34,082 nt of DNA from a virus. Positions 4,641-12,643 of the stretch are shown here, piece by piece. Below the pieces are notes generated by a model, which saw only the letters and a program-made list of their open reading frames with translations, did no database searches and was not told the DNA's origin. The stretch is taken from positions 1 through 34,082 of IMG/VR virus record IMGVR_UViG_3300048121_001500. The stretch is one strand, 5' to 3'. Position 1 is the stretch's first letter. The number at the start of each line of letters is the position of its first letter. The position numbers and the translations under genes are program-made.

Positions 4641-5321
4641 TTATTTAAGATTATTTAACAAGTATTTATAAATATCAATCTCATGCTTGACTTCGACTGG
4701 CTCAGTAGTTTCAACAACTGGCTGAGTAGCATTTATGAAATATGTTTTGAGTTTGATTATTTCGGATTCTAAAGCATATCCCATATCGTCTGAGATATTG
4801 CCCTTTCTAAGTAGTTTACAAAGATTATCATATCTTTTATAAACGTGATCAATATTAGAAATTCCTTTAACATCTAATATCTTAGCTTGATCATTTGCCG
4901 CTAAAGTAACGGCACTAATTTCGTATAGTTTTACTTCTTTTATTTCTCTGTAGTCGCCTTTTTGCTCTTTTACTATTGGCATAATGCCAACAGAGTTTTC
5001 TGTAATTACTCCGGCTTTCATAAGCTCAATAACGTCAGAGCCAAGTTGTGTTTTAGGCACTTCGGCAACAAATACAAGCCCCTTGTCGTCTTCGTATAAC
5101 TCTTTCATTTTGCCTATTGGCTGCATCATATCGTGCTGGTATAAATATTTTACTCTAGAACCGTTTTCCTGTATCGTTTTTTGATAAGCGCCTTTTCTTA
5201 TAATATCTTGGTCGCTGTCTTTATTATCAAAGTAAGACCCGTATCCTTTTACAATACTATTTTTTTCGTCATAATCAACGACAACATCTCCAAGTGGCGC
5301 GGCTTTATATATAAATTCCAT
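4641..5321 (-). CDS. Prohead maturation protease, HK97 family (S78-like)
   Basis: The protein is 226 residues with the standard elements: VKGYGSYFDNKDSDQDII near the start, the His of LYQHDMMQPIGK, and the Ser of ITENSVGIM, which with a later acidic residue form the serine protease active site; SAVTLAANDQA closes the core. It cleaves the capsid delta domain during head maturation. The last 50 residues are probably a targeting tail. It lies between MuF protein and capsid, the common order. Confidence 0.92.
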   Translation of the reverse strand: MEFIYKAAPLGDVVVDYDEKNSIVKGYGSYFDNKDSDQDIIRKGAYQKTIQENGSRVKYLYQHDMMQPIGKMKELYEDDKGLVFVAEVPKTQLGSDVIELMKAGVITENSVGIMPIVKEQKGDYREIKEVKLYEISAVTLAANDQAKILDVKGISNIDHVYKRYDNLCKLLRKGNISDDMGYALESEIIKLKTYFINATQPVVETTEPVEVKHEIDIYKYLLNNLK

Positions 5322-7989: not shown

Positions 7990-9171
7990 TTATACAACAA
8001 AAAAGTCGTTTCTATTTTTCCACCTTGAATATGTCGCATATCTAATTGAGTCCATAAGATGGTCAGTTTGGTTTGCTTTTGGTTTATTTATTATTGTGCC
8101 ATCTTTCAACTCATCATACAAGTACGAAAGCTGCTCCTTTAAAATATTTGTTGACTCCTCACTAACATAAATATCAAACTCTTTTAAAAGCGAAATACCC
8201 GCGTTAATACTGCCTTGACCCTTAACTGCCCCTTTAGCCCAAATTGACATCTGGCGTAGCTCTTCAATTGATTTTGGCTCTGCTGAATCGCAATACATTA
8301 TAAATTCCTCAAGCTTTTGCTCTTTAATAAACTCGGCAATATCTCTGTTTGTCATTCCTTTTTTATAAATAACCTCATGAATATATAAGCTGTCCTTATG
8401 CTTTCCGACCTTTACAATTGCTAAATTGTCTTGAGAAAATCCAAAGTCACACCCAAGTACAACGTCGTCAAGCTGCGGAAAATCTTTTAGGGGAATATAG
8501 CTCCAATTTTTAAAAATTTGCTTTTCACTAAATACAGCCCTTTGGCCCTCGCCATACACTCTCCAATAGTCCGGATCTCTTTCTCTTATCCTTTCTATTT
8601 CGCTTATTAATTCCTCAGGTAAAAATTTATTGTCTTTGTAAGTTGATAAAAAAAGTTCGGCGTCATCTCTTTCCGCTAAGTCGTAAAGGTAATGTATGGG
8701 ATCCGATGGGTTAAAATCAATAAATATTTTTTTTCTTGTTCTCATTACAAGCTGTTGATAATCCTCAAAAAATAATTCATTACCCTCATTAATCCATAAA
8801 ATGTCCCTTGCTGATCCCCTAATTTTTTGTGCGTCATCAGCAGAAAACATTTCAAGAGTATGCCCGTTAAACTCAAACGTATTTTCTGACTTGTTATGTA
8901 CCCCGTTCCAATATATGCCCAGCTCTTTGGATATGTGCAAAAAGTCCCTTAAAACAGATCTTTTAAGAGCGGGTAAGGTTTTCCTAACAATAGAAATTGT
9001 TAAAGGTTTTGCCTCTGTTGTCATTAAATATAAACAGTACTGCATTAAGCTCCAACTTTTACCGCTACGGGTTCCGCCTTGAAATATATTTAATCTTTTT
9101 TCTGACTTAACCGCTTGATAAAATTGTTTGTTGCAATACTCTTTTACTCTTTGTCTTTGGCCGGTGTCCAT
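7990..9171 (-). CDS. terL: Terminase large subunit
   Basis: The protein is 393 residues. The ATPase part has Walker A GGTRSGKS at about 32-39, VRKTLPALKRSVLRDF, and Walker B DILWINEGNE with catalytic Glu129, followed by IDFNPSDPIHYLYD (coupling motif). The nuclease part has LGCDFGFSQ, MYCDSAEPKSIEEL and DHLMDSIRYATY, giving the three acidic clusters of the RNase H-like fold. It packages and cuts the genome. It overlaps the terS-like gene by 28 bases. Confidence 0.96.
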   Translation of the reverse strand: MDTGQRQRVKEYCNKQFYQAVKSEKRLNIFQGGTRSGKSWSLMQYCLYLMTTEAKPLTISIVRKTLPALKRSVLRDFLHISKELGIYWNGVHNKSENTFEFNGHTLEMFSADDAQKIRGSARDILWINEGNELFFEDYQQLVMRTRKKIFIDFNPSDPIHYLYDLAERDDAELFLSTYKDNKFLPEELISEIERIRERDPDYWRVYGEGQRAVFSEKQIFKNWSYIPLKDFPQLDDVVLGCDFGFSQDNLAIVKVGKHKDSLYIHEVIYKKGMTNRDIAEFIKEQKLEEFIMYCDSAEPKSIEELRQMSIWAKGAVKGQGSINAGISLLKEFDIYVSEESTNILKEQLSYLYDELKDGTIINKPKANQTDHLMDSIRYATYSRWKNRNDFFVV

Positions 9172-9503
9172 TCAATTAGTTTGCTTTCAATTGTGCCGTC
9201 GTGTTGTATTTCTTGCCTTTCAACATATCCTCTTTTTTTTCCTTTTGTTTTTAACAGAAATATTGTTGCCGTTGTATTTCCATCTTGTATTTGCTTATGC
9301 AATTGGCTTTCAGCAAAGTCAAGAGCAACGTTTTGTATTTCATCAACTTTTTTCTTAAACTCTTTATCCTTGTTATAATAATCGTAATAAGTGGCCCTAT
9401 TGCATTTAACCTTTTTACAAGCTGTTGTTACAACACCTAAAGATAACTCTAATGCTTCCAGCAGTTTCTTTTTTAGTGTGTTGGTTTTGTTGGGTTTTCT
9501 CAT
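9144..9503 (-). CDS. terS: Terminase small subunit-like HTH protein
   Basis: The protein is 119 residues. It starts with a basic segment and an HTH: KLLEALELSLGVVTTACKKV, then CNRATYYDYYNKDKEFKKKV. The pattern of a helix-turn-helix with a Tyr-rich recognition helix followed by an oligomerisation region (ALDFAESQLHKQIQDGN, IFLLKTKGKKRGYVE) matches Bacteroidetes phage small terminases. These recognise packaging sites. It lies directly upstream of terL and overlaps it. A TAATTTTG box at 9508-9515 lies just before the ATG but has no clear -33 partner. Confidence 0.85.
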   Translation of the reverse strand: MRKPNKTNTLKKKLLEALELSLGVVTTACKKVKCNRATYYDYYNKDKEFKKKVDEIQNVALDFAESQLHKQIQDGNTTATIFLLKTKGKKRGYVERQEIQHDGTIESKLIEWTPAKDKE

Positions 9504-9976: not shown

Positions 9977-10636
9977 TTATTTAGGGTTTTTTTCTAATAA
10001 CATAAGAGAATCTGGACGAAATATGTCTTTAACTTCGGTTGAAGGTTCCCAAGTTGACACGTCATTTCTTTGTGGATTCTTTATAATTACATTATTTGCA
10101 ATGTCATTTAAAGCTTTTTTTATTAAATTGACACCCATGTCCATTAGTTCTGACCTCCATAAGTGCCTTGCGGCGTCTTTAACGCTCATACTTAAAAGCT
10201 TTGGCGGTATCCAAATCCAATCTTGATATGCAATATCGCCCCTGTCAATACCGGCATTTAACCAAAAAACAGTACCGCCAGTAATTGGGTCCTTCATTTT
10301 AACGGCCCACTCAATAGAACTTTTACCCCTATGCCTTGGCAATAACGAAGGATGATAACCGATCCAACCTATCTTTGGCATATACCTTGTTTTTTTTCCA
10401 ATATAGTCAAAGCTATGAGCCGTAATTCCTAAGTCAATATTTTTTGGAAAAGTATCTGAGTTTAACATACCCGCAGAAATAATTTTAATATCGTTAATAG
10501 ATGCCAACTTCCCAATATATTTATCACCAAGCGGGCAACAAACTCCGACTACATTGTGTCCCAATTGTAAGCACAAATGCAAAATTTCTTCTCCAAAGTA
10601 TTTTTGACCGCTTATAAAAATATTTAATTTTTTCAT
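9977..10636 (-). CDS. Formyltransferase-family protein (Fmt/GART fold) in the modification cassette
   Basis: The protein is 219 residues. The N-terminus KKLNIFISGQKYFGEEIL starts the folate-binding Rossmann-like domain. The signature is YHPSLLPRHRG (about 94-104), followed by GGTVFWLNAGIDRGDI with Asp131 or Asp134 as the usual catalytic Asp. In the canonical N-x-H triad the Asn is replaced by Gly93, so the chemistry may differ. The C-terminus is not the tRNA-binding domain of Fmt. ATG overlaps the stop of the GNAT frame (ATGA). Known relatives transfer formyl from 10-formyl-tetrahydrofolate to amines of sugars, nucleotides or Met-tRNA; here I infer a modified-base precursor or DNA amino group as substrate. 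Confidence 0.8.
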   Translation of the reverse strand: MKKLNIFISGQKYFGEEILHLCLQLGHNVVGVCCPLGDKYIGKLASINDIKIISAGMLNSDTFPKNIDLGITAHSFDYIGKKTRYMPKIGWIGYHPSLLPRHRGKSSIEWAVKMKDPITGGTVFWLNAGIDRGDIAYQDWIWIPPKLLSMSVKDAARHLWRSELMDMGVNLIKKALNDIANNVIIKNPQRNDVSTWEPSTEVKDIFRPDSLMLLEKNPK

Positions 10637-11166
10637 TTTTTACCTAAGTACTTAAAACCTTGTACAGCCCTAAAATGGCCACCGAATCCGCCCTGTGCTT
10701 TTGCACCTATTGTGCCTTTTCCTTTATTTGCTTTTGCAATTGATTTACCGCTTTTTACTTTATCAGCTCCAAATAATTTTTGAGATTTTAATATCCAAGC
10801 GGGGTTTCTATTTAAGTAACCAATAAGTTGGGGGTGGCTTGTGTGAAAAAACATGGGCAGTTTATGCCCGCATCTCCCGTTGCCTTGCTTATGATATTCC
10901 GCAATATAATTTAAAAATTTTGTTCCAACACCGGCACCCTGCCACTCGGGCATTGTTACCAACCTTGTGCCTCTATAACCTTTGGCTGTAAAAAAAGGGC
11001 AAACAGCAATATGTGAAACAAGCTCCCCGTTAACCGTGCCAATAAAATACTCTGCGGCTGGCGGCATTGGTAAATCTAAATAATAATGCGGTTTAAAATA
11101 CTTCCAGTAAGAGCTGTCGACCTTCCTAACTTCCAAGTTGAATTTTGGCCGTTCTCCAATATCGTT
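10633..11166 (-). CDS. Mom-like GNAT acetyltransferase domain, in the -1 frame of the ABC ATPase gene
   Basis: The frame encodes 177 residues from the A-run at 11165-11174 to the stop at 10633. There is no ATG before the conserved part; the only late start would be a TTG at 11136 with no well-spaced Shine-Dalgarno site. Conserved elements are ERPKFNLEVRKVDSSYW, FKPHYYL, then the acetyl-CoA loop TMPEWQGAGVGTKFLNYI and GGHFRAVQGFKYLG. This resembles the Mom-like GNAT group that modifies adenine in phage DNA (family knowledge). I infer that it is made by -1 slippage as a 378-residue fusion with the ATPase, unless the A-run is a sequencing error. Confidence 0.75.
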   Translation of the reverse strand, partial: NDIGERPKFNLEVRKVDSSYWKYFKPHYYLDLPMPPAAEYFIGTVNGELVSHIAVCPFFTAKGYRGTRLVTMPEWQGAGVGTKFLNYIAEYHKQGNGRCGHKLPMFFHTSHPQLIGYLNRNPAWILKSQKLFGADKVKSGKSIAKANKGKGTIGAKAQGGFGGHFRAVQGFKYLGKK

Positions 11167-11768
11167 TTTTTTTTAACGTCACCAGTTGACGTATCCAATA
11201 CCCAGTCAGGTTGGAGCCATTCCAAAATATCGTAATGACACGATAGCAACACAACCCTTCTGTCCTTTGTTCTTCTAAAAGCTTTGCCGTAAGCTAAAGC
11301 GCCAATTTTTGCAATTTGTCTATCAACAACTGAGGTAAACTCATCAATTATAATTTCTTTATGATTATCTGCTATTGATCTGGCCAGCCCAGCCCTAAAT
11401 TTTTGGCCGTTTGATAGTGCGTGAAAGGGCCTTAGCCATGACGGAACGTCGCCTAAACCAACAGAAGCTAAAAGCCCTGTAACAGCGTTAAAATCTCCAT
11501 CGGGTGCAATATCGTCTACAATTGGAACGTCTTTATTCCAACCGCTATATAAATCTAAAATTTTACCTCCACCAAATAGCTTATTGCCAATTGATGTTTT
11601 ACCCGAGCCACTTGGCCCCACAATAACACCAATCTGCCAATCGCCCTCAACAGGAACGTCTACATCTAAATTAAATTCGTCGCCTCTGTCTGCGTTAAAT
11701 AACGACTTTACTCTTGCGGACCTATAGCTATTAAAGTTTTTTGTTTTATTTCTAACTTTTATTATCAT
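11076..11768 (-). CDS. Soluble ABC-type ATPase of the modification cassette
   Basis: The frame gives 230 residues. Walker A GPSGSGKT is at 51-58, the signature loop LSNGQKFRAGLA at about 118-129, Walker B EIIIDE at 138-143, and the switch His178 lies in LLSCHYD. There is no membrane segment, so it is not a transporter. The last 29 residues after Lys201 (the A-run) are unlike the rest, ending in NRIII; they probably exist only in the unshifted product. It overlaps the ParB-like gene by four bases (ATGA). ABC ATPases of this soluble kind occur beside Mom-like and ParB-like genes in phages; the role may be DNA scanning or gating. Confidence 0.85.
   Translation of the reverse strand: MIIKVRNKTKNFNSYRSARVKSLFNADRGDEFNLDVDVPVEGDWQIGVIVGPSGSGKTSIGNKLFGGGKILDLYSGWNKDVPIVDDIAPDGDFNAVTGLLASVGLGDVPSWLRPFHALSNGQKFRAGLARSIADNHKEIIIDEFTSVVDRQIAKIGALAYGKAFRRTKDRRVVLLSCHYDILEWLQPDWVLDTSTGDVKKKTILENGQNSTWKLGRSTALTGSILNRIII
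11165..11174 (-). promoter_or_regulatory. A10 slippage site joining the ABC and GNAT frames
   Basis: On the minus strand the ABC frame reads GAC GTT AAA AAA AAA ACG. Within the ten A's a perfect heptamer A-AAA-AAA is in phase, so a -1 slip keeps full pairing; the next -1 codon is AAC (plus 11164-11166) and the GNAT frame is open from there. A TAA in the -1 frame covers the first two A's, so the switch must occur inside the run. RNA polymerase slippage adding one A would give the same product. Confidence 0.6.
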
Positions 11769-12283
11769 GTTACAACAACTTTGCAGTCAAAACCCTGACC
11801 GGTTAAATCTTTATATATTTTTTCTTGCTCGGCTTCCGTTTCACATTTAACAATAACGCCGTATTGACTTTTATAGCCAACCCCCTCGTCGTCAAACGCA
11901 TCGTCAAAATTATTTTTATCAAATTCTGGAAGTTCAAGTCCCCAATTGTTTAAGAGTTCGGTGTCCCACTCATTGGCTAACATATCAAAGTCCCACTCAC
12001 CAAATCCAATATTATCTTTTATAATAAATTCTTTTTTTTGATCTTCGGTCCAGTTCTTGGCAACGTCAATATATATGCTTTTTAAACCGGCTTCTTTACA
12101 AGCTTTTAATCTCATATTGCCGCCTAAAACAACCATATTTTCGTCAACAACAATTGGGCGCTTTTCAAACATTTCGGGAAAGCCCTTAATAGATGAAACA
12201 AGTTTTTTAAACTTGTTGTCTCTTATATACCTTGGATTATTTGGGTTCTCTTTTACCTTGTTAATACTAACTTTTTCAACCAT
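11765..12283 (-). CDS. ParB/Srx-like domain protein
   Basis: The protein is 172 residues. It starts with VEKVSINKVKENPNNPRYI and has the phosphate-binding motif VVLGGNMRLKACKEAG (G54, G55, N56, R58), the core of the ParB/Srx nucleotide-binding fold. The middle, IIKDNIGFGEWDFDML, and NNWGLELPEF are typical of phage members. No HTH of partition ParB follows, so a plasmid-partition role is unlikely. It starts with a TAATG overlap on the upstream gene and overlaps the ABC gene. Phage ParB-like proteins can bind CTP or act as nucleases; here I infer a part in DNA modification. Confidence 0.85.
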   Translation of the reverse strand: MVEKVSINKVKENPNNPRYIRDNKFKKLVSSIKGFPEMFEKRPIVVDENMVVLGGNMRLKACKEAGLKSIYIDVAKNWTEDQKKEFIIKDNIGFGEWDFDMLANEWDTELLNNWGLELPEFDKNNFDDAFDDEGVGYKSQYGVIVKCETEAEQEKIYKDLTGQGFDCKVVVT

Positions 12284-12492
12284 TATTTTTCCTTTTGCTT
12301 ATACAAATATAAAAATAAATCCCATATTTTATCGCTTGCAATTTTTTGATTTTTATACTCCAGAGGAGATTTAATTATTTTGCCGTTATTGTTTATTTCA
12401 ATTGTACACTCCTTTTTATTAGCAATTGGAACAATATATATTTTAATATTATTTTTTAGGCACCAAGATTGCGCTTCAAGGTATATATTCAT
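12283..12492 (-). CDS. Small protein of unknown function upstream of the ParB-like gene
   Basis: The protein is 69 residues, beginning MNIYLEAQSWCLKNNIKIYI and ending DLFLYLYKQKEK. The pattern of a first helix, a beta hairpin around KKECTIEINNNGKIIKS, and a final helix suggests a small alpha-beta fold. It overlaps the zinc-ribbon gene by 17 bases at its start and the ParB-like ATG by one base at its end, so it belongs to the same coupled operon. No family recognised. Confidence 0.6.
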   Translation of the reverse strand: MNIYLEAQSWCLKNNIKIYIVPIANKKECTIEINNNGKIIKSPLEYKNQKIASDKIWDLFLYLYKQKEK

Positions 12493-12643
12493 ATTCGTAT
12501 TTATTAATTTCGTTATTACAGCAAAAGCATTTTAAAGCGGACCAGCTAAAATGGTAAACCTTACAGCATGCGCTACACTTTGGACATACAATAATTTTTC
12601 CTTGTCCGGCCCTAGTAAACTTATTTACTTTTTTTAAACACAT
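12476..12643 (-). CDS. Zinc-ribbon peptide, 55 residues
   Basis: The frame starts one base after the primase-helicase stop and reads MCLKKVNKFTRAGQGKIIV, then CPKCSACCKVYHFSWSALKC and FCCNNEINKYEYEYIP. C20-x2-C23 and C39-x2-C42 form a zinc ribbon, with the conserved KFTRAGQGK lead and YHFSWSAL core that recur in small proteins of marine phages (recognised from memory). It probably binds nucleic acid or a replication partner, given its place after the primase-helicase. Confidence 0.75.
   Translation of the reverse strand: MCLKKVNKFTRAGQGKIIVCPKCSACCKVYHFSWSALKCFCCNNEINKYEYEYIP

Follow-up and report, generated by a model that had tools for sequence, protein, structure and literature searches.

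What reaction would a virus carry out with a ParB-like protein, an ABC ATPase, a GNAT acyltransferase and a formyltransferase (FT) encoded in tandem? Such a cassette lies at 9977–12283 on the minus strand of the window analysed here, by which we mean the whole 34,082-nucleotide stretch of IMG/VR virus record IMGVR_UViG_3300048121_001500; all cassette coordinates below refer to that strand. The original prediction, made from the letters of this stretch, placed the four domains at these positions and read them as a DNA-modification cassette. Pfam and PHROG matches confirm both the coordinates and the domain calls. We conclude that the cassette very probably performs DNA modification of some kind, because relatives exchange it with mom, because Com precedes it in a subset of loci, because alternative donor genes can follow ABC-GNAT, because ABC-coupled GNATs were earlier predicted to act on DNA, and because ParB-domain proteins associate with phage DNA-modification enzymes. 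DNA modification is the best reading of the locus, and the first three of these are support that the original prediction did not have. Both the gene set and the frame change inside it recur across many loci, so that chance explains neither.

We gathered ABC-GNAT pairs from viral contigs, GenBank phages and GTDB genomes, obtaining 223 loci, some of them near-copies, of which 132 at <90% identity serve as representatives. Two Mu-like Porphyromonas phages, 014a_Kyudai4 and 007a_Bg4, align collinearly: DNA identity is 94–96% for the greater part of both genomes and drops to 88.6% across the final 3.2 kb ahead of a swap at the right end. There 014a carries mom and 007a carries the tail module of the ParB-like protein followed by ABC, GNAT and FT, and the terminal 93 bp are shared again at 83% identity. 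A looser second swap is seen between prophage L138 and the mom-bearing Elizabethkingia phage TCUEAP3. Mu transposase families are significant in only some FT-bearing records, and we apply the term Mu-like to annotated phages only.

Com, a zinc-finger protein, activates translation of mom mRNA (PMC6483171), and its profile (PF10122) is also found before the cassette in 23 loci, ~300–400 nt upstream of the ABC domain in 22/23. ABC and GNAT are fused in frame at some loci and split by a frame change at others (below); Com is present in 20/43 FT-bearing fused representatives, plus two members of the FT clade whose contigs end before FT, and the profile found it in 0/45 FT-bearing split representatives and in none of the FT-less outgroup. 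Com and frameshift do not co-occur in this set (P = 3e-8, Fisher’s exact test), although the pattern tracks two clades and cannot count as independent evidence. Com and the frameshift may be alternative restraints on the same enzyme. These relatives resemble the Mom/Com system of phage Mu in occupying the same right-end slot in Mu-like prophages, in the upstream Com and in having a GNAT-fold enzyme, and differ from it in adding a coenzyme A (CoA) P-loop, an ABC ATPase, the tail protein and FT.

In Pseudomonas phage Komp_PAO1_1 (L086, about 4680–4810), an unannotated Com stands directly before the cassette (PF10122 E = 1.4e-21), at a position where the record annotates another, overlapping frame. 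Its com region includes a 280-base stretch with 73% identity to that before mom in phage PAN70; we rejected this pair as a second swap, finding no convincing DNA homology beyond the 280-bp com region. In the window, a 55-residue zinc-ribbon open reading frame (ORF) upstream of ParB (12476–12643; CPKC-x15-CFCC) has the size and place of a Com, does not match PF10122 and was rejected as Com; it could be a regulator analogous to it. At another locus (L225, 4782–5594) a Com zinc finger runs in frame into FT, apparently in a rearranged or decayed cassette.

Association of FT with ABC-GNAT is close to complete within one lineage. FT is present in 88/89 representatives inside one deep ABC-GNAT clade and in 0/38 outside it, a count that omits five loci whose contigs stop right after GNAT. 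Much of the FT-clade set came from a search with FT, but the loci obtained with ABC as query are concordant except for L082, the single FT-clade member truly without FT. Taken from the other side, ABC-GNAT lies beside FT in 64/80 bacterial-genome matches and immediately upstream in 77 of the best 80 viral FT matches, the remaining three being cut by contig ends. FT had been regarded as the less usual part of the set, and these counts reverse that view: it is the constant partner of this ABC-GNAT subfamily. A neighbourhood survey had also been proposed as a check of the original prediction, and co-occurrence is what it finds, both in the viral FT matches and in the presence of ParB or its tail in 116/132 representatives.

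The FT itself (9977–10636, 219 amino acids; PF00551 E = 9e-15) is of the FDH-hydrolase type. Its closest PDB sequence is 1s3i (7.5e-15), and the top fold match of its AlphaFold2 model (mean pLDDT 91) is 2bw0 (E = 1.7e-18), both FDH hydrolase domains. With FDH (ALDH1L1) it shares the active-site motif HPSLLPRHRG (10325–10354), a His/Ser/Asp triad (His95, Ser97 and Asp131, invariant across 47 aligned cassette FTs) and the lack of a catalytic Asn. Where GART and FMT have Asn-x ahead of the His, the window FT has GY, and the Asn is absent from every cassette FT displayed (GYHPS/FHPS). Catalysis by FMT, ArnA and GART depends critically on that Asn, whose equivalent in FDH is Ile104 (PMC4388273). 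The cassette FT differs from FDH in having Gly rather than Ile two residues ahead of the His, and in its short length, with neither a carrier nor an aldehyde dehydrogenase domain.

FDH hands formyl to a phosphopantetheine thiol, and the N-terminal domain of HypX, an FDH-hydrolase homologue, is the proposed maker of formyl-CoA from 10-formyl-tetrahydrofolate (PMC6802093), from which HypX proceeds to CO for hydrogenase. Because the cassette FT is FDH-hydrolase-like, lacks the Asn and keeps His, Ser and Asp, a thiol, for example CoA, is favoured as the formyl acceptor, and we put the chance that FT loads formyl onto CoA, or onto a thiol resembling it, at about even. The earlier suggestion that FT offers a one-carbon donor fits this assignment and would be sharpened by it to formyl-CoA supply. 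Several phage records annotate FT as GART (PurN), an identity that we reject, as the catalytic Asn is missing and the PurN model scores 27 bits against a 150-bit cut-off. In GenBank the gene 3 FT of Gordonia phages BiggityBass, AnClar, Axumite, Shatter, Fresco and Sisko is labelled 'tRNA-methyltransferase'. In Gordonia phages NHagos and BiggityBass, gene 2 encodes ABC-GNAT and gene 3 FT, with ParB as gene 1 of NHagos. Orphan chromosomal FTs that also lack the Asn and are unlinked to ABC-GNAT occur in beta-proteobacteria and Bradyrhizobium (L195, L198, L205, L207, L244 and L247–L249), and such orphans make up many of the bacterial-genome matches that have no ABC-GNAT beside them.

Judged from their sequences, ABC and GNAT are two halves of a single gene whose reading frame changes by -1 at a run of ten adenines (A10). 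Of the tight packing described in the original prediction, the 4-base overlaps stand, at the ParB/ABC and GNAT/FT junctions, whereas ABC and GNAT as separate genes do not. Both window ORFs match phrog_11143, one 357-position ABC+GNAT family: the 0-frame ABC ATPase product (11076–11768, 230 amino acids; phrog_11143 2.5e-80, PF00005 E = 7.9e-7) and the GNAT ORF as called from a TTG (10633–11136; phrog_11143 2.6e-45, PF00583 E = 2e-5, above the cut-off). The ABC sequence shows a Walker A motif (GPSGSGKT, 11595–11618, read directly from the ORF), an LSNGQ signature, an IIIDE Walker B and an SCHYD H-loop. At the junction of the two frames lies the slip site GTT AAA AAA AAA ACG, with an A_AAA_AAA heptamer (A10 at 11165–11174). 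After the slip, the GNAT domain would run for 177 amino acids in the -1 frame (10633–11166), giving a predicted ABC-GNAT fusion of 378 amino acids with VKKKNDIGERP across its junction, and the 0-frame stop codon (11076–11078) falls within the HYYL codons of the GNAT frame, the motif at which split representatives also stop.

This frame relationship is far from random. In-frame fusion accounts for 110 of the 223 loci; in another 112 the GNAT half reads in -1 relative to ABC, and in a single locus in +1, so that 112/113 split loci share the -1 direction (binomial P = 2e-32); the corresponding numbers for the 132 representatives are 81 fused, 50 split at -1 and one at +1 (50/51, P = 5e-14). An in-frame A_AAA_AAN heptamer stands at the junction in 45/45 FT-bearing split versus 0/43 FT-bearing fused representatives, against a background of 11 in 7167 codons of the same ABC genes, and the A tract is kept even at 59% G+C (L165). 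On a FastTree tree with many weak forks, split versus fused requires four state changes, which we interpret as the split having arisen independently three times or more. Independent initiation of GNAT at TTG 11136 was considered and rejected. Conserved N-terminal residues of GNAT (RP....L) are encoded upstream of it, and just 5/51 split representatives have a start codon early enough to include the invariant Arg-Pro; because the Arg-Pro lies upstream and 46/51 have no start there, this TTG is very probably not a start.

Programmed -1 frameshifting between ABC and GNAT appears to explain these patterns, passing the tests run with one exception that counts against it: downstream of the slip site we found no conserved stimulatory RNA structure, the consensus stem having 4 bp, -2.9 kcal/mol and no compensatory pairs. 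The nearest parallel is E. coli dnaX, where A_AAA_AAG is the slip site and a shorter and a longer ATPase product are made (PMC5009743); in the cassette the site is A_AAA_AAG or A_AAA_AAA, the shifted product would be the longer, GNAT-bearing one, and a conserved stimulatory stem is missing. Transcriptional slippage on the A tract is a rather unlikely, though serious, alternative to ribosomal shifting as the source of the frame change. Many sites are A9–A11, and one extra A restores the GNAT frame. Against slippage, some loci have only A7 (L108, L149 and L154) or A6G (L190), tracts that are short for polymerase slippage yet canonical for ribosomal shifting, and in FT-less split lineages, where the slip site is A10, T_TTT_TTC or T_TTT_TTT, a T tract can replace the A tract. 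Because A7 and A6G sites occur and T tracts substitute, ribosomal shifting is preferred. That the split reflects gene decay or a sequencing error in the homopolymer is extremely improbable: although an A10 tract is the usual place for such errors and Tenacibaculum phage pT24 is interrupted differently, the -1 bias and the heptamer counts, with the tract retained at high G+C, lead us to reject sequencing error, isolate genomes and many separate metagenomes agree, and GNAT residues past the junction remain conserved.

The interruption in pT24 (L089, 5619–5621) is an in-frame stop inside GNAT, which may represent readthrough, decay or error. In Lactococcus phage P335 (L088, 5500–5640), ORF24 and ORF25, annotated as unrelated genes, look like an ABC-GNAT split by -1 at GTT TTT, with a junction that has neither an A- nor a T-type heptamer.

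A sequence search of GNAT against the PDB returned no match, and its AlphaFold2 model (mean pLDDT 88.7) has a GNAT fold with generic GNAT matches, including protein and polyamine acetyltransferases. The acyl-CoA P-loop WQGAGVG (10924–10944) conforms to QGxGxG, with Q75, G76, G78 and G80 in 47/47 FT-type GNATs and in nearly all other relatives, and the HYYL motif (11077–11088) retains H26, Y28 and L29 in 47/47. The GNAT had been placed in the Mom-like group, a membership that we reject: profile-profile comparison with hhalign, using a small Mom profile of four sequences, gave probabilities of 0.2% for FT-type GNATs and 14% for FT-less relatives. Mom is without the canonical CoA P-loop QGAGVG, and the Mom core motifs HYS, ELNRMW and QSFAD are missing from the cassette GNAT, leaving as likeness a short HY motif and the GNAT fold. 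Residues specific to FT-type GNATs and not seen in FT-less relatives, among them H51, H107, H163 and Q168, are as expected if donor or target differs between the two groups.

The ParB-like protein of the window (11765–12283, 172 amino acids; PF02195 E = 1.3e-5, just under the cut-off; phrog_620 2e-26) consists of a ParB_N domain and a C-terminal module of ~40 residues. This tail (YGVIVKCETEAEQEKIYKDLTGQGFDCKVVVT; 11768–11884) matches phrog_28816 at residues 134–171. The 116 representatives with a ParB match upstream of ABC-GNAT comprise 57 full-length proteins, 57 tails only and two intermediate forms. Because the tail alone, as a short separate ORF of about 41–58 amino acids just before ABC, occurs in 54/88 FT-bearing representatives, the tail rather than ParB_N appears to be the stable partner. 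Proteins with a ParB domain are common in phage DNA-modification loci, where they occur with other modifying enzymes (PMC12783734). In Porphyromonas phage records the ParB-tail component is annotated as 'acr candidate', as in 007a_Bg4 (L085, 4876–5004), an assignment to anti-CRISPRs that is doubtful.

If the core acylates DNA and the next gene provides the acyl-CoA that it uses, FT is expected to be replaced by other donor genes in some lineages. In a branch represented by the Rhodococcus/Gordonia phage Jace (L091, 6074–7182; L255–L275), an aspartate decarboxylase gene and a class III CoA-transferase-like gene directly follow ABC-GNAT. The decarboxylase matches PF02261 (2e-33) and has the Gly-Ser processing site in 8/8 cases. 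The CoA-transferase-like protein is short (PF02515 E 3e-4 to 1e-13, with some members just under the cut-off) and contains an invariant GDT, which we take to fit the catalytic Asp of formyl-CoA transferase. Of 39 related viral loci, 18 carry one or both of these genes. The pair is a second candidate module for acyl-CoA supply, in this case perhaps of beta-alanyl. At a further locus (L036, 7411–8238) an Amidoligase_2 gene lies shortly after ABC-GNAT, possibly another accessory enzyme.

Together these results suggest a model in which the cassette would acylate a nucleobase of the phage's own DNA, guarding it against restriction as mom does in Mu. The ABC dimer and the ParB-tail protein would probably bind or move on DNA and present bases to GNAT, which would draw an acyl group from acyl-CoA. 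FT would supply a donor dedicated to this reaction, taking formyl from 10-formyl-tetrahydrofolate and passing it to a thiol, most probably CoA, and the product would be an N-formylated exocyclic amine; adenine N6 is the site that comparison with Mom would suggest first. In this phage and in its relatives, most of which infect Bacteroidota, the -1 slip at the A-rich site would yield ABC alone plus a portion of ABC-GNAT fusion, setting the dose of the modifying enzyme. We hold this full model, from FT-made formyl-CoA to formylation of a nucleobase by a frameshift-dosed ABC-GNAT, as tentative. Equally tentative, and taken jointly with it, is the broader proposal that ABC-GNAT serves generally as a chassis for DNA acylation, with different acyl-CoA modules swapped in by different lineages, and that it replaces mom in function.

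An unlikely alternative is two-step hypermodification of DNA, in which an aminoacyl or glycinamide-like group is attached by GNAT and subsequently N-formylated on its amine by FT. Most characterised members of the FT fold do formylate amines (FMT, ArnA, GART and sugar N-formyltransferases), and a passage of PMC7824862 describes Mom with a donor such as glycyl-CoA. The catalytic Asn of the amine-formylating enzymes FMT, ArnA and GART (PMC4388273) is, however, the residue that all displayed cassette FTs are missing, and they match best the FDH hydrolase domain, which acts on a thiol acceptor. Less probable still is acylation of a protein or RNA, such as a packaging or host component, in place of DNA. 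GNATs often target proteins, aminoacyl-tRNA or small molecules, protein and polyamine acetyltransferases are among the top fold matches here, and the window cassette adjoins terminase genes, but relatives of the cassette take the place of mom at the same site and have Com in front, and phage DNA-modification loci often encode ParB-domain proteins (PMC12783734).

Several points weigh against nucleobase formylation as the function of the window cassette. This locus, differing in this from Mom/Com of Mu, lacks both Com and a Mu-like right-end position, so that the evidence from swaps and from Com comes from relatives. FT has been lost in L082 and may alter rather than enable the reaction. FT could also hydrolyse its substrate or formylate something else, given its orphan chromosomal relatives. 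Finally, HypX itself does not appear among the listed sequence and fold matches of FT, giving no direct match between the two.

ABC-coupled GNATs were earlier predicted by the Aravind group to acylate a DNA base, according to a passage of PMC7824862 that cites Iyer 2013. That predicted system, of which Tenacibaculum phage pT24 is an example, likewise has ABC joined to GNAT, is phage-encoded and has a ParB-like neighbour in many loci, and the pT24 locus was recovered with the same profiles as the window cassette. The window subfamily differs in having FT (with one loss), clade-specific GNAT residues and, mainly in Bacteroidota phages, the -1 frameshift between ABC and GNAT. The FT subfamily, the frameshift, the equivalence with mom/Com and the swappable donor modules look new, although the 2013 prediction may mention some of them. 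The analysis turns an old prediction of DNA acylation into concrete chemistry with cultured phages (Gordonia NHagos and BiggityBass, Pseudomonas Komp_PAO1_1 and Mu-like Bacteroidota prophages). A natural replacement shows the cassette standing in for mom, and donor-making genes are linked to a predicted DNA-modifying enzyme. The recurrent -1 frameshift hides this central enzyme, explaining why gene callers split ABC-GNAT. If the model is true, acylated bases would extend the known chemistry of restriction evasion, and the cassettes would offer enzymes for DNA labelling.

PADLOC reported no defence-system match of note in the window. The cassette is flanked there by a primase/helicase gene on one side and on the other by genes for the small (9144–9503, minus strand; phrog_309 2.3e-11) and large (7990–9171, minus strand; PF04466 8.9e-20) terminase subunits, and the remaining genes of the window are a typical tailed-phage complement.

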